Below the pieces are notes generated by a model. It was not told where the DNA came from. It saw nothing but the letters and a program-made list of their open reading frames with translations, and ran no database searches. 64,000 bases of DNA from positions 124,001 through 188,000 of the IMG/VR virus record IMGVR_UViG_3300023184_000024; one strand, 5' to 3'. Each line of letters begins with the position of its first letter. Within the stretch, counting starts at the first letter, position 1. This stretch comes from a virus. The translations under genes were made by a program, and so were the position numbers. Below, in pieces: positions 4,555 to 27,710 of the stretch.

Positions 4555-4630
4555 GCGGGATTAGCTCAGTTGGTAGAGCGATACCTTGCCAAGGTATAGG
4601 TCGAGAGTTCGAGCCTCTTATCCCGCTCCA
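4555..4630 (+). tRNA. tRNA-Gly(GCC)
   Basis: The acceptor GCGGGAT pairs perfectly with ATCCCGC, the anticodon loop is TTGCCAA, and CCA is encoded. Its last 13 bases overlap the end of the convergent gene at 4618. Confidence 0.95.
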
Positions 4631-5424: not shown

Positions 5425-5460
5425 TGATTATTTACAAGTTATTTTTGAACCGTTAGTTTT

Positions 5461-5535
5461 CTGGCCATAGTATAATGGATAATACAGCGGCCTTCTAAGC
5501 CGTCAATCTAGGTTCGATTCCTAGTGGCCGGACCA
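5461..5535 (+). tRNA. tRNA-Arg(TCT)
   Basis: The acceptor CTGGCCA pairs with TGGCCGG (one G-U), the anticodon loop is CTTCTAA, and CCA is encoded. Confidence 0.94.
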
Positions 5536-5545
5536 ATTAACCCGT

Positions 5546-5621
5546 GGGGGTGTAGCTCAGTTGGGAGAGCGTTTGCTTTGCAAGCAAAATGTCGCAGGTT
5601 CGATCCCTGTCACCTCCACCA
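5546..5621 (+). tRNA. tRNA-Ala(TGC)
   Basis: The acceptor GGGGGTG pairs with CACCTCC (one G-U), the anticodon loop is TTTGCAA, and CCA is encoded. Confidence 0.95.
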
Positions 5622-5668
5622 TTTAATAATATTGTCACATTTAAAATGATATATACAGGTATACAACC

Positions 5669-6103
5669 ATGCTACATTTAATCAAAAGCGTCACTGACTC
5701 CTTAATGGACTTTCTCAGTCAAGATCCTGTGCGTCCGCACATTCCCAGATCTGTTAGAGTTGGCAATAATCGAGACATTTTTGTGGCTCGCAAAGACGAT
5801 CAAAGCGTCAAAGCAATAACCTGTGTTAGTTATCAAAACATAATCCCCACTTCCGAAGGTGAATTGTTTGAACTCACCGAGTCTCCAGATGTTGTGGTAT
5901 TTTACACTATCTGGAGTTACGAGCCAGGTGCAGGTCGCGAGTTAATTTTTGAAGCCCGGGATTGGATTCAAAAAAATCGACCCGAAATTAAAAGATTTGT
6001 TACTCTAAGCCCTCCCACAGAAATGGCTCGTCGGTTTCACATCAAGAATGGTGCATTAGTACATCGCATCAATCCCGAAACTGTTAACTACGAGTATCAG
6101 TGA
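5669..6103 (+). CDS. GNAT-like protein
   Basis: A 144-residue protein. The alternating strand/helix pattern and the ending FVTLSPPTEMARRFHIKNGA resemble GNAT acetyltransferases, where a late helix of the form AxxFHxKNGA packs on the acetyl-CoA site. The classic RxxGxG/A loop is not obvious; the nearest candidate, GAGRELIFEARDWI (~93-106), sits where that loop and its helix belong. If it is an acetyltransferase, its substrate is unknown. It lies between tRNA-Ala and tRNA-Gln on the same strand. Confidence 0.7.
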   Translation: MLHLIKSVTDSLMDFLSQDPVRPHIPRSVRVGNNRDIFVARKDDQSVKAITCVSYQNIIPTSEGELFELTESPDVVVFYTIWSYEPGAGRELIFEARDWIQKNRPEIKRFVTLSPPTEMARRFHIKNGALVHRINPETVNYEYQ

Positions 6104-6111
6104 TCCTATAT

Positions 6112-6189
6112 TGGGGTTTCGCCAAGTTGGTCTAAGGCACCGGATTTTGATTCCGGCATCCCTAGGTTCGAATCCTAGAACCCCAGCCA
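6112..6189 (+). tRNA. tRNA-Gln(TTG)
   Basis: The acceptor TGGGGTT pairs perfectly with AACCCCA, the anticodon loop is TTTTGAT, and CCA is encoded. It abuts the next tRNA with no spacer, so both ends must come from processing. Confidence 0.95.
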
Positions 6190-6264
6190 GGTAATGTAGC
6201 ATAATGGTAGTGCACCTCCTTCATACGGAGCAAAGTGCTAGTTCGACTCTAGTCATTACCACCA
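6190..6264 (+). tRNA. tRNA-Met(CAT), elongator
   Basis: The acceptor GGTAATG pairs perfectly with CATTACC. The anticodon loop is TTCATAC, without the three G-C pairs of initiators. A lysidine-modified Ile tRNA cannot be excluded. Confidence 0.9.
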
Positions 6265-6269
6265 AAATT

Positions 6270-6346
6270 CGGAGTGTAGCACAGCCCGGTAGTGCGCCTG
6301 CTTTGGGAGCAGGAGGTCCAAGGTTCGAATCCTTGTATTCCGACCA
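6270..6346 (+). tRNA. tRNA-Pro(TGG)
   Basis: The acceptor CGGAGTG pairs with TATTCCG using two G-U pairs. The anticodon loop is TTTGGGA and CCA is encoded. Confidence 0.94.
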
Positions 6347-6353
6347 TTTTTAC

Positions 6354-6429
6354 GGAGTTGTTAGTGTAACGGTTAACACCACGGATTGTGATTCCGTTAA
6401 TACGGGTTCGATTCCCGTACGACTCCCCA
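6354..6429 (+). tRNA. tRNA-His(GTG)
   Basis: The anticodon loop is TTGTGAT. An extra 5' G (position -1) faces discriminator C73, the identity element of His tRNA. The acceptor GAGTTGT pairs with ACGACTC, and CCA is encoded. Confidence 0.94.
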
Positions 6430-6451
6430 AAGCTCAAGATAAATAATTTAT

Positions 6452-8011
6452 ATGTTTGATAATACTAAACCCAATATTGTAATCTTAACCGACCATACCG
6501 ACCCTTTACTGATGCTCAAGCTGTTTGGTGCCAGTAAAGTTGCCGCAGAATTGCGCATGGCCGGTTTTCAAGTGGCAGTGATTAATCACCTACATCTATT
6601 TACAGTAGAAGAAATTAAAAACATACTAGTACAACTAGTCAGTGATCAAACTGTGTTTGTTGGCACTAGTCCGTTTTTCTATAAAAATATCGAGAATGTG
6701 TTGACTGATCATGAATTTGATCACGAGCAAGGCGGTAAAAAATATGGAACCAAAGAATTAGGCAGTTTTTTGCCACACGGAATCAAGTACAATCAAGAAA
6801 TCAAGCACTTGATCAAAGGAATTAACCCCAACTGTAAGTTTGTCATTGGCGGCCCCGACGCACAAGATCGACAGTACAACAAAGACTACGATTATGTCAT
6901 TGTTGGCTACGGAGACAACAGTGGTCCCAATTTGGCCAGACATTTGGCCTACGGCGAACCTTTGGAAAAATCGCATCGTAGTTTGTACGGACCAGTCATT
7001 GTCGACGATAGATTGGCATCTAATTATAACTTTAATTCGTCGCTGATGAGCTACGAAGATCATGATGCTCTGCTGCCTGGAGAGACCATGCTGACCGAAA
7101 TTGCACGTGGTTGTATTTTCCGCTGTGGCTTTTGCAGTTACCCTCTGAATGGTAAGAAGAAATTAGATCATATTAAATTAGATGACATTCTCTATCAAGA
7201 ATTCATGGACAACTACGAAAAGTACGGTATAACAAGATACATGTTCAGTGATGATACCTACAACGACAGTGTAGATAAAATTAAGATGATGCATGCAGTC
7301 AGTAAACGTTTGCCATTTCAACTTGAATACTGGGCTTGCTTGCGTTTAGATTTACTAGGAGCACACCCCGAAACAATCGATTTGCTGTATGAAAGCGGTC
7401 TTCGTGCCATGATGTTTGGCATCGAAACACTGCATGAAAAAGCCAGTAAGATTATTGGCAAGGGCGGCAGTCGAGCCAAGCAAATTGCCACCATCAATTA
7501 CATCAAAGAAAAGTACGGCAACAATGTAATGATGCACGGGTCCTTTATATTTGGACTTCCTGAAGAGCCAATAGAGTCTATGTTGGACACAGCTGATCGA
7601 TTGGTGTCAGGAGAAATCAAACTTGACTCCTGGGCCATTCATGCATTTAGATTACAACACAAAGGTATGAGTTATACCAGCGAGTTTGATTTGAATCCTG
7701 AAAAGTATGGATACGAACCATACGATAATACATTAGGCGGCAATCGCCTAATTTGGAAAAACAAGTTTACCAACTTTTACGAGTGCGAGAAACTGGCACA
7801 AGAAACACTCAAGCGCGGCGCCATTAAACTAAAACTTAACAAAATTGCCGGTGTAACCAGTATGTTTATTGCAGGGCTGGGTTTTGATTTACAGTACTCG
7901 GCTAATAAAAACGTTGTAGACTTTGACTGGCATCAAATTGATTTGGCCAAACAACGACGCAGTGCAGAATACAAAGAATTGTTGTACAAACAACTCAACA
8001 TTCAACCATAA
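6452..8011 (+). CDS. Radical SAM protein with B12-binding-like N-terminus
   Basis: A 519-residue protein. Residues ~1-185 look like a Rossmann-type cobalamin-binding domain (starts NIVILTDHTDP, later FVIGGPDAQD) but lack the DxHxxG motif of B12-ligating enzymes. The radical SAM core follows, with C221-x3-C225-x2-C228 binding a 4Fe-4S cluster and MMFGIET later in the barrel. The family cleaves S-adenosylmethionine to make a substrate radical. Cytoplasmic; substrate unknown. It follows tRNA-His by 22 bases without a clear ribosome site and precedes a sigma-70 promoter. It is of a different subfamily from the cluster at 35-45 kb. Confidence 0.9.
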   Translation: MFDNTKPNIVILTDHTDPLLMLKLFGASKVAAELRMAGFQVAVINHLHLFTVEEIKNILVQLVSDQTVFVGTSPFFYKNIENVLTDHEFDHEQGGKKYGTKELGSFLPHGIKYNQEIKHLIKGINPNCKFVIGGPDAQDRQYNKDYDYVIVGYGDNSGPNLARHLAYGEPLEKSHRSLYGPVIVDDRLASNYNFNSSLMSYEDHDALLPGETMLTEIARGCIFRCGFCSYPLNGKKKLDHIKLDDILYQEFMDNYEKYGITRYMFSDDTYNDSVDKIKMMHAVSKRLPFQLEYWACLRLDLLGAHPETIDLLYESGLRAMMFGIETLHEKASKIIGKGGSRAKQIATINYIKEKYGNNVMMHGSFIFGLPEEPIESMLDTADRLVSGEIKLDSWAIHAFRLQHKGMSYTSEFDLNPEKYGYEPYDNTLGGNRLIWKNKFTNFYECEKLAQETLKRGAIKLKLNKIAGVTSMFIAGLGFDLQYSANKNVVDFDWHQIDLAKQRRSAEYKELLYKQLNIQP

Positions 8012-8014
8012 TCG

Positions 8015-8043
8015 TTGACTGCTGACTCAACATCTGTTATAAT
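8015..8043 (+). promoter_or_regulatory. Sigma-70 promoter for the tRNA-Leu group
   Basis: TTGACT (8015-8020), 17 bases, TATAAT (8038-8043). The predicted start lies a few bases before tRNA-Leu(TAG) at 8055. Confidence 0.8.
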
Positions 8044-8054
8044 ACAATAATTAA

Positions 8055-8131
8055 GCCCAGGTGATGGAATTGGTATACGTGTTGGTCTTAGAAGCCAAAT
8101 TTTGCGAGTTCGAGTCTCGCCCTGGGCACCA
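8055..8131 (+). tRNA. tRNA-Leu(TAG)
   Basis: The acceptor GCCCAGG pairs perfectly with CCTGGGC, the loop is CTTAGAA, the variable arm is short, and CCA is encoded. Confidence 0.92.
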
Positions 8132-8139
8132 ATAAATGT

Positions 8140-8225
8140 GCGACTGTGGTGAAATAGGTAGACACAAAAGACTTAAAATCTTTCGCTGTAATGGCATGCC
8201 GGTTCGATTCCGGCCAGTCGCACCA
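8140..8225 (+). tRNA. tRNA-Leu(TAA)
   Basis: A class II tRNA. The acceptor GCGACTG pairs with CAGTCGC, the anticodon loop is CTTAAAA, and CCA is encoded. Confidence 0.95.
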
Positions 8226-8229
8226 ATAT

Positions 8230-8303
8230 GCTCCTGTAGTATAATGGTAATACACGCCCTTGGTAAGGGCGAGCCACAAGTTCAATTCTTGTCTGGAGCA
8301 CCA
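8230..8303 (+). tRNA. tRNA-Thr(GGT)
   Basis: The anticodon loop is TTGGTAA and CCA is encoded. The acceptor GCTCCTG/CTGGAGC has one U-U mismatch at the sixth pair. Its 3' strand GGAG is placed to act as the ribosome site of the next gene. Confidence 0.93.
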
Positions 8304-8307
8304 TATT

Positions 8308-8457
8308 ATGAAACTGTTCGAAGCAACAATAAAAATTAACGGTCGAGAATTCAAAGATCGTGTGGGCGCAAATAATGCCGAAGAAGCACGATTGCTTTTA
8401 CAACAACGTCATGGGCCTAGGGCAGTGCCTTATTTGCCCAAAATGATACCAAGTTAA
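8308..8457 (+). CDS. 49-residue phage protein starting 4 bases after a tRNA
   Basis: The frame beginning MKLFEATIKINGREFKDRV reads like a compact strand-strand-helix protein (later NNAEEARLLLQQRHG). The only ribosome-site-like sequence is GGAG at 8295-8298, inside the acceptor stem of tRNA-Thr, nine bases before the ATG. The frame stays open further upstream inside the tRNA, but ATG 8308 is the sensible start. It ends two bases before tRNA-Ser. Function unknown; related short proteins with an NAEEAR helix are common in phages. Confidence 0.75.
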   Translation: MKLFEATIKINGREFKDRVGANNAEEARLLLQQRHGPRAVPYLPKMIPS

Positions 8458-8459
8458 CA

Positions 8460-8549
8460 GGAAGCGTGGTCGAGTCTGGTTTATGGCAACAGTCTTGAAA
8501 ACTGTCGACTCGCAAGGGTCCGTGAGTTCGAATCTCACCGCTTCCACCA
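8460..8549 (+). tRNA. tRNA-Ser(TGA)
   Basis: A class II tRNA. The acceptor GGAAGCG pairs perfectly with CGCTTCC, the anticodon loop is CTTGAAA, and CCA is encoded. Confidence 0.95.
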
Positions 8550-8564
8550 ATATGGAGTATTACT

Positions 8565-8864
8565 ATGTCAAACGAAAACGATAAATTCAACCATAGCAAG
8601 CGTTTGCTCAAAGATGACAATGCAGTCAACAAGCAGGTTAAAATTGCTAAATCACATGGGTTGACCAACAAGGACAAGGCAGTAAAAGAGCCACATCGTT
8701 TGGCCAAACATCATGCCATGGACTGTGGCCGTCCTGGGTGTATGCTATGTGGTAACCCACGCAAAACGTTTAAAGAACTCACTGCTCAGGAAAAACGACT
8801 GTATCAAGATGTTGACAATCCACCATCTAAGCATACAAACGGTACTTTGCCTCCTGAAGAATAA
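8565..8864 (+). CDS. Small basic protein with a CGRPGCMLCGNPRK motif
   Basis: A 99-residue, strongly basic, probably disordered protein with the ribosome site GGAG 9 bases before its ATG. The centre (~54-67) carries three cysteines in CxxxxCxxC spacing followed by NPRK, a motif I recognise from small conserved phage proteins of unknown role. It may bind a metal or nucleic acid. It lies between tRNA-Ser and tRNA-Phe on the same strand. Confidence 0.85.
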   Translation: MSNENDKFNHSKRLLKDDNAVNKQVKIAKSHGLTNKDKAVKEPHRLAKHHAMDCGRPGCMLCGNPRKTFKELTAQEKRLYQDVDNPPSKHTNGTLPPEE

Positions 8865-8868
8865 TATG

Positions 8869-8943
8869 CCGCGGTAGCTCATCAGGTAGAGCAGCAGACT
8901 GAAAATCTGTGTGTGGCTGGTTCGAGTCCAGCTCGTGGCACCA
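8869..8943 (+). tRNA. tRNA-Phe(GAA)
   Basis: The acceptor GCCGCGG pairs with TCGTGGC using two G-U pairs. The anticodon loop is CTGAAAA and CCA is encoded. Confidence 0.94.
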
Positions 8944-8947
8944 ACAA

Positions 8948-9022
8948 CGGTCCTTAGTTCAATGGATAGAATGCTTGGCTTCGAACCAAGCGGTGTGGGT
9001 TCGATTCCTGCAGGACCGGCCA
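8948..9022 (+). tRNA. tRNA-Arg(TCG)
   Basis: The acceptor CGGTCCT pairs perfectly with AGGACCG, the anticodon loop is CTTCGAA, and CCA is encoded. It is the last tRNA of the array. Confidence 0.93.
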
Positions 9023-12117: not shown

Positions 12118-12756
12118 TTGCCGGTACATTTAATCAATCCACTGCCGATATATCAAGAAGAGTCTGGCTATACTTTGTCAGACTCTGAATTATCGATACT
12201 CAACAATATCAAATATAACTCAGTGAGCAAGCCGTTTATCTGGGAATATGCATCAGAGTATACAATATTAGATCACCCTGGACTGGCAGATCTAAAGGCT
12301 GTATTACAACAGCACTTGGATAGGTATCGCAAAGAAATATGTGGTGTGGTTGATCAAGAGTTTTATATTACCAACAGTTGGTTAAGTAAAATCGAAGCTA
12401 TCCAAGGTAACTTATCTGAACATTCGCACGACAACAGTTTAATCAGTGGTGTGTTTTACATTGATGTCCCGCCCGACACTCCTTTGTGTTTTCGTAATCA
12501 TAGTCAGATTTTTAAAAAACATGATTTTTATTTTTCAAACAGTGTTGATACACAATACCGACAAGAAACATATTGTGTACCAGTAAAATCTGGAGACATT
12601 GTGCTATTCCCAAGTTGGGTAGATCATTACGTTGAAAAAAATCAAACAAGTCATGTTCGAAGAAGTTTGGCATTTGATAGTTTTGTTCGAGGGCTGTTTG
12701 ATGGTAAAATGTTGCACAACGATAAAACTGGTTTTAGTACGCTAATGATTAAATAA
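12118..12756 (+). CDS. 2OG-Fe(II) oxygenase family protein
   Basis: A 212-residue protein with a jelly-roll oxygenase layout: EHSHDNSLISGVFYID supplies the HxD iron ligands, GDIVLFPSWVDHYV the distal histidine, and RRSLAFDSFVRG the arginine that binds 2-oxoglutarate. The family hydroxylates amino acids, proteins or small molecules; phage forms are frequent. The only plausible start is TTG at 12118, three bases after the preceding stop and without a ribosome site, so translation probably depends on coupling to the upstream gene. Its substrate could be the neighbouring surface protein, which is inference. Confidence 0.85.
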   Translation: MPVHLINPLPIYQEESGYTLSDSELSILNNIKYNSVSKPFIWEYASEYTILDHPGLADLKAVLQQHLDRYRKEICGVVDQEFYITNSWLSKIEAIQGNLSEHSHDNSLISGVFYIDVPPDTPLCFRNHSQIFKKHDFYFSNSVDTQYRQETYCVPVKSGDIVLFPSWVDHYVEKNQTSHVRRSLAFDSFVRGLFDGKMLHNDKTGFSTLMIK

Positions 12757-12825
12757 AAGTTAAGACTGTATGAAGTAGAGAGAAAAGGATTCAAGACGCG
12801 GGGGCAGTGCCCGCCAGGTCCACCA

Positions 12826-12901
12826 AAAACACACTGCCAGTCGCGCTGGTTGTATGGTACTATTCTAGAAATAAGGTTCGAATCCTTAGTGTGTTTTTGA
12901 T
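12826..12901 (+). other. tmRNA intervening segment with tRNA-like arms
   Basis: The 76-base spacer between the CCA end of the acceptor piece and the start of the coding piece has AACACAC/GTGTGTT as an acceptor-like stem, CCAG/CTGG as a D-like stem, and a perfect T-arm TAAGG-TTCGAAT-CCTTA. The anticodon region does not fold well. It may be a decayed tRNA or a mimic that helps processing enzymes cut out both pieces. Confidence 0.65.
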
Positions 12902-13009
12902 GGGCCTGACACAGGATCGATTGGGTCAAGAGTATTGAAATGGACAGTCCGGCAATGTAGAAGCCGTTAGGGTTGGGGGAACTCGGCCGAAGACACAAAA
13001 ACCGTAAAT

Positions 13010-13042
13010 GCAAACGACGAACAGTTCGCTTTAGCCGCCTAA
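13010..13042 (+). other. ssrA: tmRNA tag reading frame (ANDEQFALAA)
   Basis: Ten codons and TAA encode ANDEQFALAA, ending in the LAA degron read by ClpXP. It differs by one residue from ANDERFALAA, a tag known from several Betaproteobacteria, and is more distant from E. coli ANDENYALAA. Confidence 0.95.
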
Positions 13043-13083
13043 ACTCGGCTTAGGGTAGGAAATACCTCGTAACAGAAACCACC

Positions 13084-13107
13084 AGCCCGCTTCGGCGGGC
13101 TTTTTTT
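13084..13107 (+). terminator. Intrinsic terminator of the tmRNA gene
   Basis: AGCCCGC-TTCG-GCGGGCT followed by a run of T: a seven-pair GC-rich stem with a stable tetraloop. Confidence 0.95.
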
Positions 13108-13120
13108 CTTGGAGTAAACT

Positions 13121-13360
13121 ATGGGCAATCAAACCGATTATTTTGAACGCATTGGCTACAAACCCACCTGGTATCTAGGAGATAGGGTGTTTGGGCATTG
13201 GAATAAAATTCCTTTTGTTGGAACAGTGGGCAATGATACTGTGATTAATCATACTGAAGGGCCACGGATCACTATTCATTTAGACCTTCCCATCAAGTAC
13301 AAGAGTCAAATACACAATATTATTGTAGTTAATCATAAAGATATCAAGCTTTACAAGTAA
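13121..13360 (+). CDS. Small phage protein, beta-rich
   Basis: A 79-residue protein with ribosome site GGAG ten bases before ATG, just after the tmRNA terminator. The pattern WYLGDRVFGHWNKIPFVGTV followed by ITIHLDLPIKYKSQ suggests a small SH3-like barrel, as in other phage proteins where GDRVFG starts a strand. No function is assigned. A promoter between the terminator and the gene is not visible. Confidence 0.85.
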   Translation: MGNQTDYFERIGYKPTWYLGDRVFGHWNKIPFVGTVGNDTVINHTEGPRITIHLDLPIKYKSQIHNIIVVNHKDIKLYK

Positions 13361-13443: not shown

Positions 13444-16218
13444 ATGGCTTACATAGTCAACAACAGCCGAGGCCAAATTATTGCGGTGGTGCAAGATGGT
13501 ACTGTAAACATCACTGCAACTAGCCAAACTTTAGTCGGCAAAAACGTAACACCTTACGGGGAGTATGAGGTTGAAAATCTTGTACACCAATTAGAAAATT
13601 TTGCTAATAGTACGCCGCCTGGAAATCCAATTGAAGGACAACTTTGGTGGGATTCTGACAATGACCTAATCAAAGCATACACAGGAACCGGTTGGAAAAA
13701 TGTTAATGGAATCACTGTAGCTACATCTGCGCCATTGATGGATCCTAGTCCTATGGTCGGGGATCTGTGGTTTAATTCATCAACCAAAGCTCTTAGTATA
13801 TATTCTAGTACCAGCACTGGATATGCCTGGATCCCGGTTAATATAGTAAATGTGGCTTCGAGTGCTCCTACAGCCAACGTTGCTGGTGAAGTATACTATA
13901 ATAGCACCAGCAGTCAATTGTTTATATGGAACGGCACACAATGGAATCTAGTAGGGCCAGAGAATGTACTAGGCTTTGCTACCACACGCTGGACCAGTAC
14001 CACTCTATTAGATACCAACAGCGCCGAGCATGCAGTCATTGAAGCTGTGGTTGAAGGTATTGTCATTGCTATTATTTCCTCTGACGAATTTACTATATAC
14101 GGATCCCAGGCTCCGGCTGGCTTTACAAAACTCTATCCCGGAATCAACATGAGCAGTAGTTATGTTCTAGCCGGTCGTGCAACCAATGCTGATCAGTTAA
14201 CCACAGCTAGAACAATTAACGGTGTTGCATTTGATGGTACAACTAATATTACCATAGCCAATAATGGAGAATTAACAGCCGGCACTTACCTGGTTGGCAC
14301 CCCATACTCAGGAGCGGCTAATCAAACCTGGACAGTTGATGCAACTTTTACCAATACTCCCAGCAAGGTAGTGGCTCGAAATAGCAGTGGTGATTTTTCT
14401 GCACGTACAATCACTGCCAATGTGACCGGTAATGTAACAGGATATTCAACCAACGTCACTGGTATAGTTGCCGCAGACCACGGCGGTACTGGCTACTCTA
14501 GTTTTATTGAAGGCCAAATTTTAGTTGGCAATTCACTGGGCGGGCTTAATCGAGCCAACATAACCGGCAGTGGTCCTATAGAGGTCAGCAGTGACGGCAA
14601 CGGTATATCTATTTCTTATGCTGGTGGAACTGGCAGTGGCAATGTCACCTATGTAGGCATTACTGCTGGCACAGGTATTGGAGTTTCTGGTAGCCCAATT
14701 ACGTCTGCAGGTAACATCACAATCACCAACTCGGGTGTTACAAAAATAACACCGGGTTCGGGTGTCTCAATCAACTCAGGCAGCGGCAATGTTGTTGTCA
14801 CCAACAGCGGTGTCATTCGAGCTGTCGCTGGCACTGGCATTGGCCTTAATCAAGAAACTGGCCAAGTTACAATCACCAACTCGGGTGTGACCAGCATTGT
14901 TGCTGGCACAAACATCAGTGTTAACCAAAGCAATGGTGCAGTCACCATTAGTTCAACTGGCGGTGGTGGCGGAACTTACAGTTTACCGGCTGCAACGGCC
15001 AGCACCCTAGGCGGTGTTAAAGTGGGTGCTGGGTTAAGTGTCACACCCGGTGGTACATTGTCTGCACTGGCAAGTAGCGCAGTGACACAAATTGTTGCAG
15101 GTAACGGTTTAACTGGTGGCACTATTACATCAACTGGCACCATTGGCATTGACAGCACAGTGATGACCACTACTGGAACACAGACAGTCACAGGAAAGAA
15201 AGCGTACACTGGTGGCATTGTTAGTCAAACATATAATTTTTCAGACACAGGGTATAGTATCTTTTATGCTGACCCAACTTTCCCCGGATACACAGAATCT
15301 GTGGTACAGATAGCCGTTGCTAATGCTTTTTCTCACCAATTTTATAGAAAACGTTTTGTAGTAGAAGGTAGTGCAGATGTGCCACCAGGAACTACTAGAC
15401 CAGCTGGTGCAGTCATCACCGGCATTGACAACGGTAATACTGGCGGAGCTGGCATACAAGGTTGGCATACAAGCAGTGTTCCCGGATTGGGGATTGGCAC
15501 TGGTGCTCTTACCACCAGCGGATTATTCACTGGCGCATTGTTTCAAAGTAATGCAAGCCGAACCAAAGGCCCACAATTTGTACAAATTAGATGTTATTCG
15601 AGTACAAGTTCAACTCCCGATCCAGTGTTTGTGGTCAACGGACAAGGCGATGTTTCCTATGATGGTAACATAACTACTCCTGCCAGCGACTATGCTGAAT
15701 ATTTTGAATGGTCTGACGGTAATCCCAATGCTGATGATCGTGTTGGCTACTCTGTGACGTTGTCAGGTAACCAAATTCAACTAGCACAATCCGGCGATAC
15801 TGTGCTTGGTGTGGTGTCAGCCATGCCTGCTATCATTGGCGATGGCGCTGAACTCAAATGGAAAGACATGTACTTGACCGACGACTGGGGTCGGCCAATC
15901 ACAGAACCATATTATGAAATGACCTGGACTGATGAAAAGGGCGATAAACAAAGTTGTGCCAGCTTTGAAGATCAATCCGGTGTTCCCGGTAATGCAGTGC
16001 GTGTAGATGTAGATCCTGCTGGTAACCCACTTGTTAGAATAGTGGTCAACCCCGAATACGATCCAAGTATCAAGTACACTCCACGTAGCAAACGCAAGGA
16101 GTGGTCTCCTGTTGGTCTACTAGGTAAATTGCGTGTGCGCAAAGGTCAGCCAGTTGGTACTAACTGGGTCAAGTTGCGAGACATCACTGCCAACATCGAA
16201 GAATGGTTGATTAGATAA
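13444..16218 (+). CDS. Tail fibre with C-terminal peptidase-G2-like domain
   Basis: A 924-residue protein. The N-terminal ~170 residues (GEYEVENLVHQLENFANSTP, GQLWWDSDN, GDLWFNSS) match the start of the shorter fibre at 48888-50264 and probably anchor both to the tail. A Gly/Ser/Thr-rich repetitive shaft follows (~300-560), with repeats around SGVTKI, SGVIRAV, SGVTSIVAG. The C-terminal ~200 residues begin TPASDYAEYFEW, the form of the peptidase-G2/IMC autoprocessing domain, which folds the trimer and cleaves itself. The tip before it probably binds the host. Ribosome site GGAG. Confidence 0.9.
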   Translation: MAYIVNNSRGQIIAVVQDGTVNITATSQTLVGKNVTPYGEYEVENLVHQLENFANSTPPGNPIEGQLWWDSDNDLIKAYTGTGWKNVNGITVATSAPLMDPSPMVGDLWFNSSTKALSIYSSTSTGYAWIPVNIVNVASSAPTANVAGEVYYNSTSSQLFIWNGTQWNLVGPENVLGFATTRWTSTTLLDTNSAEHAVIEAVVEGIVIAIISSDEFTIYGSQAPAGFTKLYPGINMSSSYVLAGRATNADQLTTARTINGVAFDGTTNITIANNGELTAGTYLVGTPYSGAANQTWTVDATFTNTPSKVVARNSSGDFSARTITANVTGNVTGYSTNVTGIVAADHGGTGYSSFIEGQILVGNSLGGLNRANITGSGPIEVSSDGNGISISYAGGTGSGNVTYVGITAGTGIGVSGSPITSAGNITITNSGVTKITPGSGVSINSGSGNVVVTNSGVIRAVAGTGIGLNQETGQVTITNSGVTSIVAGTNISVNQSNGAVTISSTGGGGGTYSLPAATASTLGGVKVGAGLSVTPGGTLSALASSAVTQIVAGNGLTGGTITSTGTIGIDSTVMTTTGTQTVTGKKAYTGGIVSQTYNFSDTGYSIFYADPTFPGYTESVVQIAVANAFSHQFYRKRFVVEGSADVPPGTTRPAGAVITGIDNGNTGGAGIQGWHTSSVPGLGIGTGALTTSGLFTGALFQSNASRTKGPQFVQIRCYSSTSSTPDPVFVVNGQGDVSYDGNITTPASDYAEYFEWSDGNPNADDRVGYSVTLSGNQIQLAQSGDTVLGVVSAMPAIIGDGAELKWKDMYLTDDWGRPITEPYYEMTWTDEKGDKQSCASFEDQSGVPGNAVRVDVDPAGNPLVRIVVNPEYDPSIKYTPRSKRKEWSPVGLLGKLRVRKGQPVGTNWVKLRDITANIEEWLIR

Positions 16219-16226: not shown

Positions 16227-16261
16227 TTGATTTAGTTGGGCAATAAGTATATAATTATTGC
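16227..16261 (+). promoter_or_regulatory. Sigma-70 promoter with an inverted repeat over the -10
   Basis: TTGATT (16227-16232), 17 bases, TATAAT (16250-16255). A perfect inverted repeat GCAATAA/TTATTGC (16240-16246 and 16255-16261) flanks the -10 and could be an operator for a repressor. Confidence 0.7.
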
Positions 16262-16278: not shown

Positions 16279-17427
16279 ATGCATCTCATAGACTATCCAG
16301 TCACTGATCGTTTCGGCTACTATCAAATTGGCCAACAAAAATTTTATTCCAAATATCTGGCCATTCAGGAACATACCCGAACAGGCATACATCCCGAGTG
16401 GCATTTTAATGACGAAGTTTTTTCTAGCTACAATTGGAAGGAAGAGCCTGCGGAATCGCTGGACAAACTGTATCAACAACGTGCTGAACAGCTAAGAAAC
16501 AAATATGATTATCTTGTGTTGTTGTACAGTGGAGGCTCAGATAGCCACAACATATTAGATGTTTTTATTAACAACAACATCAAGCTTGACGAAATTTGTA
16601 CCTATCACAATTTAAGTGCGCCCGGTCAACAAGATCTTGGCACCAATGCTGAAGTTCTACGTGCGGCATTTCCATACATGGAACATGTACGATCTACGCA
16701 CCCTGAAATACGTCAACGCATTGTGGACATAACCCCAAACCAGGTATCCTATTGGCTCAATGACCAATACGGTCAACTTTGGCTGGAAAACCTTTCCAAC
16801 AATTTTCATTTGGGAAGTATTCAAAGTCAAATAAAATACTCGCTGGATCCCGAGTACGCACAAATGCGAGATCGTGGCGTAAAAATTGGATTTATTGTGG
16901 GCACAGATAAGCCCAGAGTCTGGCAGATTGATGGTCGCTGGTGTGTAAGGTTCATTGATACATTTACAGATTTTATATTTCATTGCCAAGACGATGGTAC
17001 TGAGTTTTTTTATTGGTCACCGGACTTGCCCAAACTAATTATTAAACAGTCGCACATTGTCAAACGTTATCTTGAGCAGGCCACAGAATCAACACCGTTT
17101 GTTAGTACCACAAAAAAAATTGAGTTGGCCTGCAAGGAACACAATGGAAAAAAACTTTGGCTAAGTGACCATGGTGTACACAGTTTGCTTTACCCAACCT
17201 GGAACATCAATACATTTAGTCTAGGCAAAGATCCGCACAAGGCCTGGGGAATTAGAGATATCTGGTTTAGAGATACTCTACACAAAGAAAATCATCAAAG
17301 CTTTAAAAACTACAAACATCAATTTGATACTTGGTGGAATTCGGTTCCGGACTATTGGAAAAATGATCCAGTTGATCGTAATCGAGGACAAAAGCTTTGT
17401 TGGAGCAGACCGTATTATCTTAATTGA
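16279..17427 (+). CDS. PP-loop ATPase (asparagine synthase/QueC-like fold)
   Basis: A 382-residue protein with the ATP-pyrophosphatase loop YSGGSDSHN (83-91), which binds ATP to adenylate a substrate. The family includes asparagine synthase, QueC and tRNA-modifying enzymes. The flanking N-terminal ~75 residues and the long C-terminal part do not match a specific member I recognise. No cysteine pair typical of TtcA or zinc site typical of QueC stands out. A role in modifying a nucleotide, amino acid or sugar is inferred from the fold. It stands behind its own promoter and is followed after 7 bases by the Bug receptor gene. Confidence 0.8.
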   Translation: MHLIDYPVTDRFGYYQIGQQKFYSKYLAIQEHTRTGIHPEWHFNDEVFSSYNWKEEPAESLDKLYQQRAEQLRNKYDYLVLLYSGGSDSHNILDVFINNNIKLDEICTYHNLSAPGQQDLGTNAEVLRAAFPYMEHVRSTHPEIRQRIVDITPNQVSYWLNDQYGQLWLENLSNNFHLGSIQSQIKYSLDPEYAQMRDRGVKIGFIVGTDKPRVWQIDGRWCVRFIDTFTDFIFHCQDDGTEFFYWSPDLPKLIIKQSHIVKRYLEQATESTPFVSTTKKIELACKEHNGKKLWLSDHGVHSLLYPTWNINTFSLGKDPHKAWGIRDIWFRDTLHKENHQSFKNYKHQFDTWWNSVPDYWKNDPVDRNRGQKLCWSRPYYLN

Positions 17428-17434
17428 GGAAAAC

Positions 17435-18325
17435 ATGTTAAAAAAATTCGCAACATCAATGTTAATCGCAGTTAGTTCAACTGTGTGGGCACAGTCAGAA
17501 CCTTTGCGTTTTCTGTTGCCATATGCACCTGGTGGATCAATTGATAAAATTGCCAGGGCCATTGAAAAGCCCTTGGAAAAAGAACTAGGACGACCGGTTG
17601 TGGTTGACTACAAGGCAGGTGCTGGTGGTCTAGTTGGCGCACAGTGGCTTAAAAATCATCAAAGCAAGACACCAACAATCATGCTTATGCCTGCGCCAAG
17701 TTTGGCATTCACTGATGAAGTCGACGCGGTTGCGGACTTCCCCCCAGTTTATTATGTTGGATACATTCCTGAGATGCTGGTGGCCCGGCCAGAATTTAAA
17801 TACAATACCTTGTCCCAGCTCATGAACGACAAGAATCGAGGAAAACTCAACTTGGCCACAGTTGCCAAAGGAGACCCCACTTCCACATTGCATGCTCGAC
17901 TGAACGACAGTAATGCTGTGCTGGTACCATACAAAGGTTCTAGTCAAAGCATAGTTGATGTAATGGCCGGGCATGTGGACCTTGCTGGCACATCAACCAC
18001 TGCGGTCCTGGAAATGATAGCTGCCGGTAAATTAAAAGGCCTAGGCGTTGGTGGTCCACGGAGATCGTCGGCGTTGCCCAACATACCAACATTTGATGAG
18101 CAAGGCATTGGTTGGAAGGCCACTCTAAGGTATTTTATCTTTGTAAATCGCTCTGCCGATGCCGACGAAGTTAAAACCATTGTATCTGCCCTGAATCGTG
18201 CTGTACGTAGTCCGGAGTTTGTGCAATCTAAAAAACAAATGGATCTGCATGACGAACCGTACCAAGGTACTGTTGCCCAATTTTTCTCACTGGCACTAGA
18301 ACAAACACGGCAAAACCGCCCTTGA
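17435..18325 (+). CDS. Bug/TctC-type periplasmic solute-binding receptor
   Basis: A 296-residue protein with ribosome site TGAGGA, ATG at 17435 and a classical signal peptide (~1-19, ending AQS). LRFLLPYAPGGSIDKIARAI, GRPVVVDYKAGAGGLVGAQW and the later PYKGSSQSIVDVMAGHVDLA are the signature of the Bug family (receptors for tripartite tricarboxylate transporters), greatly expanded in Burkholderiales. The family binds carboxylates or related small molecules. Length is about 20 residues under usual. No transporter membrane genes are present, so it would have to serve a host TctAB system or act in signalling. It looks recently acquired from a host. Confidence 0.93.
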   Translation: MLKKFATSMLIAVSSTVWAQSEPLRFLLPYAPGGSIDKIARAIEKPLEKELGRPVVVDYKAGAGGLVGAQWLKNHQSKTPTIMLMPAPSLAFTDEVDAVADFPPVYYVGYIPEMLVARPEFKYNTLSQLMNDKNRGKLNLATVAKGDPTSTLHARLNDSNAVLVPYKGSSQSIVDVMAGHVDLAGTSTTAVLEMIAAGKLKGLGVGGPRRSSALPNIPTFDEQGIGWKATLRYFIFVNRSADADEVKTIVSALNRAVRSPEFVQSKKQMDLHDEPYQGTVAQFFSLALEQTRQNRP

Positions 18326-18338: not shown

Positions 18339-18367
18339 AAGTGTGGCATAAAACCCACACTTTTTTT
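18339..18367 (+). terminator. Intrinsic terminator after the Bug receptor gene
   Basis: AAGTGTGG (18339-18346) pairs with CCACACTT (18355-18362), followed by a T-run. Confidence 0.9.
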
Positions 18368-18392: not shown

Positions 18393-18421
18393 TTGACACA
18401 ATAATGTAGATTTTGTATAAT
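18393..18421 (+). promoter_or_regulatory. Perfect-consensus sigma-70 promoter
   Basis: TTGACA (18393-18398), 17 bases, TATAAT (18416-18421): an exact match to the host housekeeping consensus, upstream of the MoxR-like ATPase gene. Confidence 0.9.
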
Positions 18422-18455: not shown

Positions 18456-19559
18456 ATGTCAAAAGCAAGTGTAAGCGATAGTCGTACAGTCACCGCAATT
18501 GGTGCCAAAAAAGCAATTAAAAAATGCTTTGATAAAAAACGTCCAATTTTCCTATGGGGTCCTCCCGGAATTGGCAAAAGTGAAGTTGTTGCAGGTATTA
18601 CGCAAGATCTCAGTGGATTAATGATTGACCTACGCCTAGGTCAGATGGATCCCACCGACATCCGAGGTATTCCGTTTTACAACAAAGAACTAGGGAAAAT
18701 GGATTGGGCGCCGCCCATCGACTTGCCCGACGAAGAAACTGCTAGCCAGTATCCCATTGTGGTGTTGTTTCTTGATGAAATGAACTCGGCGGCACCCGGC
18801 GTTCAGTCAGCCGCTTACCAACTTATTTTGAACCGACGGGTAGGCAAGTATAAACTGCCCGACAACGTTGTTATGGTGGCCGCAGGAAATCGTGAAAGTG
18901 ATAAAGGCGTTACCTATCGTATGCCTACTCCGTTGGCAAATCGTTTCATCCATGCTGAGATGCGAGTAGACTTCCAAAGTTGGTTAGAGTGGGCTACTAA
19001 TAACAGAATTCACAAAGATGTTGTGGGATATTTGAGTTTTGCAAAACAAGATTTGTACGACTTTGACGCTCGCTCTAGCTCACGTGCCTTTGCTACTCCA
19101 CGTAGCTGGACATTCGTCAGCGAACTGTTGGAAGAAGATGACACAGAAGATGTCACGCTCACAGACTTAATTGCCGGCAGTGTCGGTGAAGGCCTTGCTG
19201 TTAAGTTCATGGCTCACCGTAAAATTGCGGGTAAACTGCCCAAGCCCGAAGAGGTGTTGTCCGGCAAGGTCAAGGACTTAAAGGTCAAAGAGGTGAGTGC
19301 CATGTACAGTCTTGTTATCAGCCTGTGCTATGAACTCAAAGATGCTATAGAAGTAAGAAAAGTCTCTGACAAAGATTTCCACGCAATGAGTGACAATTTC
19401 TTCCGTTACATGATGGATAATTTTGAAACTGAGCTTGTTGTTATGGGTGCTCGTATTGCACTTACCACATACAACTTACCATTCCAACCTACCAAGTTAA
19501 AAAACTTTGACGAGTTCCATCAGCGTTATGGCAAGTACATCTTGCAAGCCAACTCTTAA
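18456..19559 (+). CDS. MoxR-type AAA+ ATPase
   Basis: A 367-residue protein with Walker A GPPGIGKS (35-42), Walker B VVLFLDEMN (~107-115) and sensor 1 VVMVAAGNRE. The insertion DIRGIPFYN before Walker B and the overall form place it in the MoxR/CbbQ branch, chaperone-like ATPases that act with VWA-domain partners to activate or insert cofactors into target complexes. The partner, a DUF2201/VWA protein, is encoded at 21261, each gene with its own strong promoter. The final ~100 residues are helical. The target is unknown. Confidence 0.92.
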   Translation: MSKASVSDSRTVTAIGAKKAIKKCFDKKRPIFLWGPPGIGKSEVVAGITQDLSGLMIDLRLGQMDPTDIRGIPFYNKELGKMDWAPPIDLPDEETASQYPIVVLFLDEMNSAAPGVQSAAYQLILNRRVGKYKLPDNVVMVAAGNRESDKGVTYRMPTPLANRFIHAEMRVDFQSWLEWATNNRIHKDVVGYLSFAKQDLYDFDARSSSRAFATPRSWTFVSELLEEDDTEDVTLTDLIAGSVGEGLAVKFMAHRKIAGKLPKPEEVLSGKVKDLKVKEVSAMYSLVISLCYELKDAIEVRKVSDKDFHAMSDNFFRYMMDNFETELVVMGARIALTTYNLPFQPTKLKNFDEFHQRYGKYILQANS

Positions 19560-19619: not shown

Positions 19620-19839
19620 TCTCTATACCACTGTAAGGATCAGCTTTGATCCTTACAGCCATGATCAAGTACAAGACTTGCTTCGTAAAGTTCAGCGCGA
19701 CTTTGGCCGAGACCGATCACGTTGGTATTACCAAAGTCCGTTACTTGGCATGGACACCCAGGTCAATACTTGGACTGTTGATTTTTGCTTTCGAGAGCCA
19801 CATGATGCCACGTTGTTCGGACTCAAGTACTTGAGGTGA
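19603..19839 (+). CDS. 78-residue hypothetical protein
   Basis: A 78-residue frame, NPTPLYTTVRISFDPYSHDQ onward, with coherent strand/helix alternation. The start codon is buried in the hairpin at 19568-19619, and no strong ribosome site is seen apart from AGGG. Its last 99 bases overlap, on the opposite strand, the end of the radical SAM gene at 19741. It ends LKYLR. Function unknown; I believe it is real but am not certain. Confidence 0.6.
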   Translation: MSNPTPLYTTVRISFDPYSHDQVQDLLRKVQRDFGRDRSRWYYQSPLLGMDTQVNTWTVDFCFREPHDATLFGLKYLR

Positions 19840-20805
19840 TTGTATAATGGTTTCAAGTTGGCCATCGATGCTACAACTGTCAGAATTCTTAAACTCTGAG
19901 AGTGCCGGCACCAACCATTCGTAGTCTACTTTGTAGTTGTGTCTTATTCGATTCTCCAACCAAAATTGATTGGTCATATGAGTCCAAGGACTGATGCCTT
20001 GCAGTCCAGAAAAGGTAACTCCCATGTCTTTGCATAGATCACGATAACTTAGAATTTCTTTGTAGTTTCCGTATTGTACAACAAATTGAGTTATAACAGG
20101 AATTCCTAAATCAATCACTTGCTTCATTCCTTTAACCATAATACCAAAGTTACCGCCACGTATTTTTTGATATGTTTCAGGGGTGCTAGCATCCATAGAC
20201 ACTGTTATTCCAGAAATTCGATTTTTAATCTTGGCTATTAGATCAATGTTTTTTGATAGTAGATTACCGTTTGAATTTATACTCAATTTGAAACACGATG
20301 GCAATCTATCTGAACTTAGGAAATCCAAATATGCAGTACTCATCAGCATTTCTCCGCGGCCATCCCCTTGTATCAAAACGGTGTGATCAAAATTTTGATA
20401 TTCCTCAATCAGACTGTTCAGTACGTGTCTGGCACCTGGATTGATTTCTTTGGTATGATAAAAATCACTGCGACAACTTGGGCAAGCAAGATTACAACTT
20501 CGGTCCAGATCTTGCAAATAGATATTCGTAGGCAAAGAAGGTGTTGGTATATTCGATAAATCAGTTACCGAATCCATGGACCAGTATCGTCCACACACAT
20601 TCGAATCACAGAATTTAAAGCTTTGATTATAAATGCTGTTTCTGAATTCTTGGGTTTTAGGTGATGCAAAAATATCGTGGAGTGTTTGGCTATTCAAATT
20701 CCCAGCAGGACCTTGTGTTTGCCAGCCTGGACATAAACATAGCACTACATCACCGTTCTGACTAATATTAACAGTGTTCCAAGGGCTATCACAAAATTTT
20801 AACAT
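19741..20805 (-). CDS. Radical SAM protein with N-terminal SPASM/twitch-like cysteines
   Basis: A 354-residue protein. The core motif C104-x3-C108-x2-C111 (CNLACPSC) binds the radical SAM cluster. N-terminal cysteines C5, C23, C25, C66 and C71 sit in a block like WNTVNISQNGDVVLCLCPGW, a SPASM/twitch-type auxiliary cluster placed before the barrel rather than after it. It closely parallels the 358-residue protein at 43617-44693. Such enzymes typically modify peptides or sugars. It stands alone on the minus strand, its start 32 bases from a divergent gene. The C-terminus overlaps a plus-strand gene. Confidence 0.88.
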   Translation of the reverse strand: MLKFCDSPWNTVNISQNGDVVLCLCPGWQTQGPAGNLNSQTLHDIFASPKTQEFRNSIYNQSFKFCDSNVCGRYWSMDSVTDLSNIPTPSLPTNIYLQDLDRSCNLACPSCRSDFYHTKEINPGARHVLNSLIEEYQNFDHTVLIQGDGRGEMLMSTAYLDFLSSDRLPSCFKLSINSNGNLLSKNIDLIAKIKNRISGITVSMDASTPETYQKIRGGNFGIMVKGMKQVIDLGIPVITQFVVQYGNYKEILSYRDLCKDMGVTFSGLQGISPWTHMTNQFWLENRIRHNYKVDYEWLVPALSEFKNSDSCSIDGQLETIIQSPQVLESEQRGIMWLSKAKINSPSIDLGVHAK

Positions 20806-25361: not shown

Positions 25362-25685
25362 ATGGCACGAACTCAGGACGATGAGCTAACGCTCTACAAA
25401 AAAGAAGAGGTTAAGGTCATCGGTGATCGGGCTGTGCGTTTTCGTGACGTATGTGTGCACGAATTCAAAATGGGTGATGTTGATGACGTTGAAATTTATG
25501 CGGCTGAACCAATTTGGAAGTGGCAGCAAACAGAAGCAGGCAAATGGGTCATGGAAAATGCTTTTGAGCCGCCTTACTGGATACGTCAATCTGACTATGC
25601 CACGTGGGGACATGTATATCGTATCATGGCCAGACTAAGCGAACAACACGAAACCTTCTGGACATTAAAATGGGGCAACAAATGA
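25362..25685 (+). CDS. Hypothetical phage protein, 107 residues
   Basis: A compact protein with the pattern EVKVIGDRAVRFRDVCVHEF, then EIYAAEPIWKWQQTEAGKWV, and a C-terminal WGHVYRIMARLSEQHETFW. It reads like a small enzyme-associated or structural protein that I do not recognise. Its stop overlaps the start of the epimerase gene (ATGA), so the two are likely translated together. Confidence 0.85.
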   Translation: MARTQDDELTLYKKEEVKVIGDRAVRFRDVCVHEFKMGDVDDVEIYAAEPIWKWQQTEAGKWVMENAFEPPYWIRQSDYATWGHVYRIMARLSEQHETFWTLKWGNK

Positions 25686-26650
25686 AAATATTAGTAACAG
25701 GCGGCCTAGGTCTCATCGGGCACAACGTTGTGCAACGATTAGAAGCTCTAGAGCACGAAGTAATCATCACCGACACTCGTACAACCTACGGCATCATCCC
25801 GCAGACAGAGATTGATTACTTGATGACGGAACGATTAAAGAAGATATCAGGCAACAACATTTATCACATTGATATCACTAATGCTGACAACGTTGATTGG
25901 CTAGTAAACAAGCACAAGCCAGAAGTCATCATCCATATGGCAAGCTTTCCCCGACAGAAAGTTGTCAACGCTAATCCTGCATGGGGAAGTCGTGTTATGA
26001 TGGAAGGCTTGATCAATGTTTGTGAGAGTGCCAAAAAGCACAATGTACAACGTGTAGTGTACATTTCTAGCTCAATGGTGTACGGCGACTTTGAAGATCA
26101 AGTCGAAGAAGACTACAACTGCCGGCCTATTGGGCAGTATGGCATTATGAAATTAACAGGAGAAGACATTGTCAAAGATTATCATCGTCGCGGCGCTTTT
26201 GATTATGCTATTATACGTCCCAGTGCAGTTTATGGACCGCTTGACGTCGAAGACCGAGTTGTTGCCAAATTCATGCTCACAGCCATGCGAGGTGGAACCC
26301 TCAAGGTCAATGGAGCAGGGGAGACGCTAGACTTTACCTATGTGGATGATGCCGCTGATGGTATTGTGGCAGCTGCCACCCTTGACCATGCTGGCAACAA
26401 TACCTACAATATTACTAAAAGTCATTCAGTGAGCTTGTTAGAAGCCGCTGAAATGATTGTGAAGATTGTGGGGCAGGGCGAGATTGAGTGCAGAGACAAA
26501 GATGCAGACTTTCCCAGTCGTGGTGCATTAAACATTGATCGTGCAAAAACTATCTTGGGCTACGATCCCCGAGTAGATGTAGAGGAAGGATTCCAAAATT
26601 ACTTCAACTGGCTTAACAATTCCGTTTACTGGTCTCCGAAAACAGTATAA
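25682..26650 (+). CDS. NAD-dependent NDP-sugar epimerase/dehydratase (extended SDR)
   Basis: A 322-residue protein starting MKILVTGGLGLIGHNVVQRL, the nucleotide-binding GxxGxxG loop. The catalytic dyad YxxxK appears as QYGIMK (~157), with a Ser stretch VYISSSMVYG before it. These enzymes act on nucleotide sugars in the cytoplasm (4-epimerase, dehydratase or reductase). It precedes a DegT-type aminotransferase, a classic pairing for making amino-sugars. It probably feeds the glycosyltransferases in this island. The start overlaps the previous stop. Confidence 0.92.
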   Translation: MKILVTGGLGLIGHNVVQRLEALEHEVIITDTRTTYGIIPQTEIDYLMTERLKKISGNNIYHIDITNADNVDWLVNKHKPEVIIHMASFPRQKVVNANPAWGSRVMMEGLINVCESAKKHNVQRVVYISSSMVYGDFEDQVEEDYNCRPIGQYGIMKLTGEDIVKDYHRRGAFDYAIIRPSAVYGPLDVEDRVVAKFMLTAMRGGTLKVNGAGETLDFTYVDDAADGIVAAATLDHAGNNTYNITKSHSVSLLEAAEMIVKIVGQGEIECRDKDADFPSRGALNIDRAKTILGYDPRVDVEEGFQNYFNWLNNSVYWSPKTV

Positions 26651-27710
26651 CAATCTCCGTACAGAGATTTTAGATGCCACCGACGAGGTGCTTCGCAGTG
26701 GCCAACTCATGAACGGAAATAACACCGCAGAATTTGAAGATTGGCTTGCTAAAAAGAATCATGTGCGTTATGCAGTGACTTGTCATTCGGGCACACATGC
26801 GCTTGAGATTTTAGCCAGTTACTGGGCAACATGCGACCGGCTTGGGCCGCATCCTCCTACGGTGTTGATCCCCTCAATGACGTATGTGGCCACTGCCAAT
26901 GCATTTATACGTACAGGATGGGACGTACACATCATTGACACTGATGCACATGGGCTGATTGATATTAACAAAATACCACATGGTCTGAGTTATCAAGCTG
27001 TTGTGTTAGTTGGACTGTATGGTGCATCTGTCACACATCATGGCAACTATCGTGCATGGAACGAATGGTTGCGTCATGACACTGTTGTTATAGAAGATGC
27101 CGCACAACACTGGCTTTCTGCTGACTGCACAAGAACTGGACGTGGTGGCGGTGCTATTAGTTTTGACCCTATGAAAAATCTTGCCAGTTACGGCAATGGC
27201 GGTGCTGTGGTCACTGACAATATTGACTTGGCAGAATATGCCAGAGTTTGGAGAGACAACGGTAAACCTGCACATCGCAATACCGGAACCAATAGTCGTA
27301 TGAGTGAACTAGATTGCGCCCACATGTTAGTTAAATCTCGGCACATTGATCGTTGGCAGGCCCGTAGACAAAAAATTGCAGACCACTGGCGTGAACGATT
27401 CAAGGACACAGGTATACGTTGTTTAATTGATGATTCTAACGCACACAATCATGCTGTGCATAAGTTTGTAATAGATGTCAACGGGCGCGATACTTTAAAA
27501 GCAAACCTTGCATTGCGCAAAATTGATACACGAGTGCATTATGCAAATCCCTTGCACGAATTGCCGTTGTATAGATCCTATCCTGGTCCAGATATGTTGG
27601 CTGTGAGCTCTAGTTTTGCTCGTCGTGTACTGAGCTTGCCTATCTACCCTGAGCTGACAGACTTAGAAGTTGAATATATCAGCGATCAGGTGTTAGGCTG
27701 CGTCGCATAA
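26619..27710 (+). CDS. DegT/DnrJ/EryC1-type PLP aminotransferase
   Basis: PLP-dependent sugar aminotransferase. ISFDPMKNLASYGNGGAVVT holds the PLP lysine; VIEDAAQHW binds the cofactor ring. The first standard start codon in frame is GTG at 26688 (340 residues). However, codons before it read IPFTGLRKQYNNLRTEILD, a normal DegT N-terminus, back to ATT at 26619. The true start may therefore be the rare ATT, overlapping the epimerase gene by 32 bases. The enzyme makes amino-sugars from keto-sugars, fitting the epimerase before it. The 3' end overlaps a convergent gene by 32 bases. Confidence 0.9.
   Translation: MPFTGLRKQYNNLRTEILDATDEVLRSGQLMNGNNTAEFEDWLAKKNHVRYAVTCHSGTHALEILASYWATCDRLGPHPPTVLIPSMTYVATANAFIRTGWDVHIIDTDAHGLIDINKIPHGLSYQAVVLVGLYGASVTHHGNYRAWNEWLRHDTVVIEDAAQHWLSADCTRTGRGGGAISFDPMKNLASYGNGGAVVTDNIDLAEYARVWRDNGKPAHRNTGTNSRMSELDCAHMLVKSRHIDRWQARRQKIADHWRERFKDTGIRCLIDDSNAHNHAVHKFVIDVNGRDTLKANLALRKIDTRVHYANPLHELPLYRSYPGPDMLAVSSSFARRVLSLPIYPELTDLEVEYISDQVLGCVA

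Follow-up and report, generated by a model that had tools for sequence, protein, structure and literature searches.

A gene for a TctC/Bug periplasmic solute receptor in the genome of a large phage lies directly downstream of a gene for a PP-loop protein that we refer to as f5, and the same two genes recur as neighbors in related phages. The cassette of receptor plus f5 is a stronger finding than the receptor alone, and what the first-pass annotation had regarded as an unexpected metabolic gene does not stand alone but is one half of this recurrent cassette. The DNA that was analyzed, referred to below as the window, is a 64,000-nucleotide stretch that corresponds to positions 124001-188000 in a virus record of 352,754 bases (IMGVR_UViG_3300023184_000024, denoted G000 among the phage records compared). 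This record carries a T4-type major capsid gene (Gp23 match, E=1.4e-99). The cassette and its flanks comprise the following features:

13444..16218, + strand: fibre/appendage-like gene whose 924-aa product contains a Peptidase_G2 self-cleavage domain (E=7.8e-35), immediately to the left of the cassette
16227..16255, + strand: promoter-like site TTGATT-17-TATAAT preceding the cassette (consensus scan, 10/12; pattern match only)
16279..17427, + strand: f5, a 382-aa PP-loop protein, putative ATP-dependent carboxylate-activating enzyme (motif LLYSGGSDS, predicted fold)
17435..18325, + strand: TctC/Bug periplasmic solute receptor gene, 296 aa with a signal-peptide-like start (ORF, Pfam profile, solved relatives, predicted fold)
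18339..18362, + strand: hairpin and T run resembling a terminator, just 3' of the TctC stop (pattern scan)
18393..18421, + strand: perfect TTGACA-17-TATAAT promoter-like site at the start of the next transcription unit (pattern scan, 12/12)
18456..19559, + strand: conserved AAA ATPase of phages (phrog_1297), bounding the cargo slot on its right

The ATPase, which served as a landmark, shares 52% identity with ATPases of PA5oct-like Pseudomonas jumbo phages, and a short stretch near it is 71-72% identical in DNA sequence to jumbo phages of the 121Q/PBECO4 type. No RNA family was detected with Rfam between window positions 16200 and 19600. Elsewhere, the window holds 27 genes for tRNAs and one for a tmRNA with the tag ANDEQFALAA (131-9022 and 12733-13133), a 2OG-Fe(II) oxygenase-like gene (12118-12756; PF13759, E=9.4e-20), a SPASM/radical SAM gene (19741-20805) and a further radical-SAM-like run on the minus strand (35481-44693), in which five of the seven ORFs scanned match phrog_14086, phrog_1802 or phrog_21308. 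Nucleotide-sugar epimerase-like, aminotransferase-like and Nol-like carbamoyltransferase genes are located at 25604-27710 (+) and 32836-34314 (-), which hints at glycan or small-molecule modification, and a single ORF of 4265 aa occupies 51068-63865 (-).

A TctC/Bug receptor encoded by a phage

The receptor ORF is intact. We chose the ATG at 17435 over an in-frame TTG at 17324 because GAGG lies just 5' of the ATG and the protein then opens with a signal-peptide-like stretch, MLKKFATSMLIAVSSTVWA, as judged by eye and by a simple rule. Computed across the data set, this rule assigns a signal-peptide-like start to 54 of the 56 phage TctC copies versus 40 of 273 other ORFs. The protein matches the Pfam profile TctC (PF03401) with E=2.6e-33 and 116 bits, where the curated cut-off is 27, and its best solved sequence relative is BugD (2f5x, 4.9e-29), while PHROGs holds no family that matches it. 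An AlphaFold2 model (pLDDT 89.8, pTM 0.85) has TTT receptors as its eight best structural matches, with Z scores of 29.4-31.2, and the top matches include MatC (Z 31.2), TBP, BugD (Z 30.4), 2dvz, TphC, the AdpC-type 5oei and Bug27. Members of the TTT receptor family take up the first eleven places (Z 25.1-31.2), and the first match outside the family drops to Z 17.1.

According to the available sections of PMC5812351 and PMC8556258, the family loop that holds the ligand carboxylate reads P-F-x-A-G-G-x-x-D. The corresponding loop in the window receptor is PYAPGGSID, in which P, G, G and D are retained, F is replaced by Y and A by P; at the last of these positions P is also the commonest letter among cellular relatives. 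In the second loop, Y166-K167-G168 is retained as well. K78, A144, S150 and R232, by contrast, stand at positions where 48 cellular relatives hardly vary and carry other residues. Taken together, the ORF, the PF03401 profile, the fold, the ligand loop and the signal-peptide-like start bear out the earlier claim of a phage-borne Bug/TctC receptor with intact motifs, and we regard it as confirmed that the window gene encodes a genuine TctC/Bug receptor. As a class these receptors bind carboxylates, and orphan receptors are common in cellular genomes (both as stated in the available part of PMC5812351).

The 80 nearest cellular TctC loci that were kept belong, by record title, to Betaproteobacteria (75), Alphaproteobacteria (3) and Gammaproteobacteria (2). 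The receptor had been proposed to point to a Burkholderiales host, with a placement outside Betaproteobacteria named as the outcome that would overturn this. The betaproteobacterial affinity stands, since 75 of the 80 loci are betaproteobacterial; as a pointer to the host it is weak, given that the best identity found in 200 Burkholderiales genomes is 39%. A second TctC gene in the same virus record reaches 32% in those genomes. On these values, and on the low ones given below for the porin and TctA of L003, we reject a recent capture from a host. Given the best Burkholderiales identity of 39%, either the capture was old or change has been fast. As to a single or multiple origin of the phage TctC genes, the trees differ: FastTree needs five label changes (starred branches force two) and a quick IQ-TREE run six (forces three). 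For FastTree, 21 of 170 cellular rows were dropped on account of length or duplication; for IQ-TREE, 10 of the 56 phage rows and 101 of the 149 cellular ones were dropped. The window receptor grouped with phage copies at only 77-87 support, on long branches and with cellular rows that had been picked as relatives of P0001.

Related phages were collected by an ATPase-based scan that returned 80 virus loci, and the domain and f5 scans used the 50 largest contigs, leaving out 30 of the 80 loci. TctC was detected at E<=0.001 in 26 of these 50 contigs, 23 of them above the cut-off and with up to five copies per record, and an HMM built from the hits retrieved 56 non-redundant phage copies in the fetched loci. 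Of 81 slot loci, the window among them, 27 have a same-strand TctC gene upstream of the ATPase, as do 24 of the 57 loci for which 6 kb or more of upstream sequence is at hand, one of these (L029) being weak at E=8e-5. Other cargo found in the slot consists of a DctP-family receptor (L050:3100-4044, E=3.2e-54), a tryptophan-halogenase-like protein (L007:2272-3894, 1.5e-47) and an aspartyl/asparaginyl hydroxylase domain (L037:2771-3889, 1.8e-10).

Among 50,697 deposited phage records, a TctC match was obtained in one, MT836965, which is doubtful, being an unannotated gut scaffold labeled 'UNVERIFIED' that also matches TctA. A peptide-pattern search of IMG/VR for close relatives of the window receptor yielded none that was confirmed, and the TctC of L037, used as a query, matched itself only. 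The phage TctC copies are under purifying selection. Of 25 pairs that share at least 50% identity, 19 could be computed and gave dN/dS of 0.057-0.259; dS is saturated in several, and none includes the window copy.

The second TctC of the record is located at position 45,315 (~45.2-46.2 kb; L002:1378-2355). It belongs to a phage-only group of nine in the trees and has no f5 nearby. Conserved in most of this group are genes of 209 and 219 aa downstream, often joined by 4-base overlaps, and a divergent gene of 242 aa.

Linkage of the receptor to the PP-loop protein f5

The f5 ORF ends seven bases 5' of the TctC start. No Pfam or NCBIfam family matches f5 above cut-off, and the faint matches below it include the PP-loop families ATP_bind_3, Asn_synthase, LarE, TilS and QueC. 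Across 36 f5 members the starting Met, S84, G86, D88 and F244 are invariant, and G85 and S89 of the SGGxDS loop are kept in at least 90% of the rows. The predicted model (pLDDT 88.1, pTM 0.90) aligns with asparagine synthetase B (AsnB) at Z 12.1 over 293 residues with 8% identity, with beta-lactam synthetase at Z 11.1, and with NAD synthetases and LarE at about Z 8, whereas the closest predicted viral proteins are unnamed and assigned to 'uncultured Caudovirales phage' (best 33% identity, TM 0.92). Judged by the SGGxDS loop and the predicted fold, f5 appears to belong to the PP-loop ATP pyrophosphatase superfamily. Enzymes with the folds nearest to f5 adenylate carboxylates; that f5 might do the same is a guess from fold, since it has no close solved relative (Z 12, 8% identity).

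AsnB-type asparagine synthetases carry an N-terminal glutaminase half with a Cys directly after the initiator Met. The window f5 begins MHLIDY, with no Cys at position 2, and in view of this and its total length of 382 aa, we would not expect an AsnB-type glutamine-using half. In addition, none of ten f5 members scanned reaches the cut-off of the asparagine synthetase family PF00733, the best E value being 0.14 for a divergent member. The f5 profile matched none of 200 Burkholderiales genomes, a search that had no positive control in those genomes, and the same profile matched 32 of 51 phage records. By tblastn f5 was found in none of the 50,697 deposited phage records, and it is absent from the 80 cellular TctC loci searched. 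We regard f5 as an undescribed PP-loop family.

In the 51 phage records we retained 40 f5 genes after dropping four of 44 profile matches (E 2.9e-9 to 3.4e-4). A TctC gene lies within 2 kb of 35 of the 40, whereas 500 random placements gave 3.2 on average and never more than 10; when only Pfam-found TctC genes are counted, 28 f5 genes are linked versus 2.6 at random. At the level of records, 29 have both genes, 3 only f5, 3 only TctC and 16 neither (Fisher p=1e-7, a value that is optimistic because the records are related and many are fragmentary). A separate scan that started from one f5 member found TctC directly upstream in 8 of 12 loci, five of them on seven previously unseen contigs. The 35 linked pairs are arranged with f5 first (12), TctC first (18), convergently (2) or divergently (3). 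This variation in order indicates that f5 and TctC have been rearranged while remaining neighbors, a pattern not expected if a single fixed block had simply been inherited. In the reverse direction, f5 lies within 2 kb of 35 of 52 TctC genes, and the other 17, among them the second TctC of G000, show that the receptor does not always need f5.

Across 26 cassettes, promoter-like sites were found in 13 and terminator-like sites in 8, compared with 5.7% and 3.3%, respectively, at randomly chosen positions, which were mostly coding. A phage 'moron' is cargo with its own promoter and terminator that sits between core genes and varies among relatives. At the level of such pattern matches, the cassette would fit this description, and the content of the slot varies. 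We had also asked whether f5 and TctC diverge together, taken as proof that their specificities match, and rejected this line of support: an initial Mantel correlation (r=0.73, p=2e-4) was lost with rank statistics and removal of near copies, and the non-redundant comparison gave r of 0.08-0.21 and p of 0.05-0.22. L019 and L062 were removed as copies from this analysis and from the promoter and terminator counts, and L029 and L053 were also removed for the non-redundant co-divergence.

Some related phages carry further parts of a transport system. The TctA permease is present in 7 of the 51 records and in the slot of 7 of 81 loci, two of which are copies of one another, and a TctC-like ORF begins 2 to 190 bases downstream of every slot TctA; with the exception of L061/L062, these ORFs were found by the iterated HMM only and not by the Pfam search. 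TctB gave two weak matches only in the 51 records. An outer-membrane porin (PF13609) is above cut-off in 14 of the 51 records, including the window phage (G000:C1:318953-319840), and in 7 of the 14 (G001, G002, G005, G014, G020, G026 and G031) it lies within 3 kb of TctC, TctA or f5. In L003 the order is porin, TctA, TctC-like and f5, consecutively; the porin has full-length matches of about 33% in 200 family-level genomes, and the TctA shows 25-26% among the plasmid matches listed. The window phage record has neither TctA nor TctB, so for this phage a host permease must be assumed. Searching four Burkholderiales genomes in full with the receptor gave 42, 113, 99 and at least 150 matches, and numbers of this size make it plausible that host permeases would accept foreign receptors.

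Proposed role of the cassette

The reading that we favor, while holding it tentatively, is that TctC and f5 may form a phage cargo cassette of two genes for importing and activating a carboxylate, with TctC as the half responsible for capture. The receptor would be exported to the periplasm, where it would clamp a small (di)carboxylate and hand it to a TctA-type inner-membrane permease, supplied by the host in the window phage and phage-encoded in some relatives, some of which may supply their own outer-membrane porin as well. In the cytoplasm, f5 would adenylate the carboxylate with ATP and join it to an amine, ammonia or a sulfur donor, and the product would be used by the phage. What the computations show is the family and fold of the receptor, its signal-peptide-like start, the motif and fold of f5, linkage of the two genes beyond chance, TctA and porin genes next to the pair in relatives, and purifying selection on the phage TctC copies; that the genes are expressed, and that a ligand is bound, transported, adenylated and turned into a product of benefit to the phage, is what we infer. 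The pairing is sensible in that the receptor class binds carboxylates and the nearest folds of f5 adenylate them. A role in carboxylate uptake, which the first-pass annotation had suggested, is retained as the favored function, since TctA and porins are encoded by some related phages. The repeated swapping of versions of the pair, some with membrane channels, suggests that these viruses rewire the uptake and processing of the infected cell.

A broader version, possible but on balance unlikely, is that a jumbo-phage lineage carries a swappable porin/receptor/TctA/PP-loop-ligase pathway in which a particular environmental carboxylate would be turned into a phage-specific product by a matched receptor and ligase. 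The repeated swapping of versions of the pair, some with membrane channels, suggests that these viruses rewire the uptake and processing of the infected cell.

The alternative that survives best, doubtful as we consider it, is that TctC is a plain uptake booster, helping host TTT permeases to bring in more of a carbon or nitrogen source during infection, with f5 as a separate metabolic gene (for example, an ammonia-dependent asparagine maker) sharing the same hotspot. The 17 of 52 TctC genes without f5, the unrelated slot cargo such as the tryptophan-halogenase-like and DctP-like genes, the absence of a co-divergence signal and the tens to more than 100 TctC genes in host-type genomes are all in keeping with a booster. 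However, a mere hotspot should pair f5 equally often with other cargo, and 35 of 40 f5 genes adjoin TctC, also outside the ATPase slot (for example in G008, G018, G031 and G036) and with changing order and strand.

It is improbable that the receptor serves in envelope protection or as part of the virion, either blocking or replacing envelope proteins of the host on which competing phages rely, or decorating the particle. Lambdoid phages carry porins that alter phage sensitivity, and this precedent, the porins in 14 of 51 records and the position of the cassette next to a fibre gene speak for such a role. Against this, periplasmic receptors are not exposed at the surface, the family ligand loop is retained in the window copy, and a cytoplasmic-type enzyme and TctA would be left unexplained. 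Less probable still is a part in signaling, the other role that the first-pass annotation had raised, in which ligand-loaded phage TctC would tune a host two-component system and thereby set host metabolism for the phage. The available text of PMC5812351 offers a precedent for TctC proteins in signaling, citrate-loaded BctC tuning a two-component system in Bordetella, and the window phage record has no permease gene, but TctA, porin and a cytoplasmic PP-loop enzyme are linked in relatives, which fits import better. Finally, an assembly artefact or bacterial contamination of a metagenomic contig, which the first-pass annotation had named as a possible one-off, is hardly credible: the related records are all metagenomic and the sole matching deposited phage record is the unverified gut scaffold, yet phage genes flank the cassette on both sides, no cellular gene above 39% identity and no f5 was found in 200 Burkholderiales genomes, and TctC, present in 26 of 50 related records and a second time in G000, recurs in the same slot (27 of 81 loci), contradicting that view.

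Significance and comparison with known systems

Returning to the proposed import-and-activation cassette, the significance of the finding is that, time and again in a large lineage of phages, a receptor of carboxylate type has stayed next to a single, undescribed family of ATP-using enzyme, with the permease and an outer-membrane channel added in some members. If the coupling is real, infected bacteria would take up and process compounds through a viral pathway, and the ligand of the receptor should be the substrate of f5, providing a handle on an unnamed PP-loop family. To our knowledge, most Bug receptors have no known ligand or permease, and a receptor that is tied to a single enzyme is an unusually tractable case for Bug biology. 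A literature search, with all preprints and most subscription papers outside its scope, turned up nothing published about TctC receptors in phages or about the pairing of TctC with f5, and the available portions of PMC13282480, PMC6802176, PMC9878933 and PMC12619734 hold nothing on either.

The window receptor shares its profile, predicted fold, signal-peptide-like start and carboxylate-loop motif with the TTT receptors BugD (2F5X), 2DVZ, Bug27 (2QPQ), TphC (7NDS) and MatC (6HKE). It differs from cellular TctC/Bug proteins in that it is phage-borne, with at most 39% identity to any cellular copy found, and in that the phage receptor is paired with f5, which is absent from all 80 cellular TctC loci. 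Similarly, f5 has the SGGxDS motif and the overall model fold in common with PP-loop enzymes of the asparagine and beta-lactam synthetase type, but unlike these it falls in no Pfam or NCBIfam family above cut-off. The phage uptake genes known to us, which are of the PstS type, each add a single component to transporters that the host already has. On SUP05 viral contigs a tctA domain hit is on record (PMC4164917, named in PMC6359870), likewise a TTT gene on a viral contig, but in the available text it is a permease domain only, with no receptor or partner described. The cyanophage phosphate receptor PstS is, according to the available part of PMC6359870, likewise a phage-encoded periplasmic receptor that is thought to raise uptake; by comparison, phage TctC belongs to another class of transporter and ligand, is linked to an enzyme, and is accompanied by permease and porin genes in relatives.
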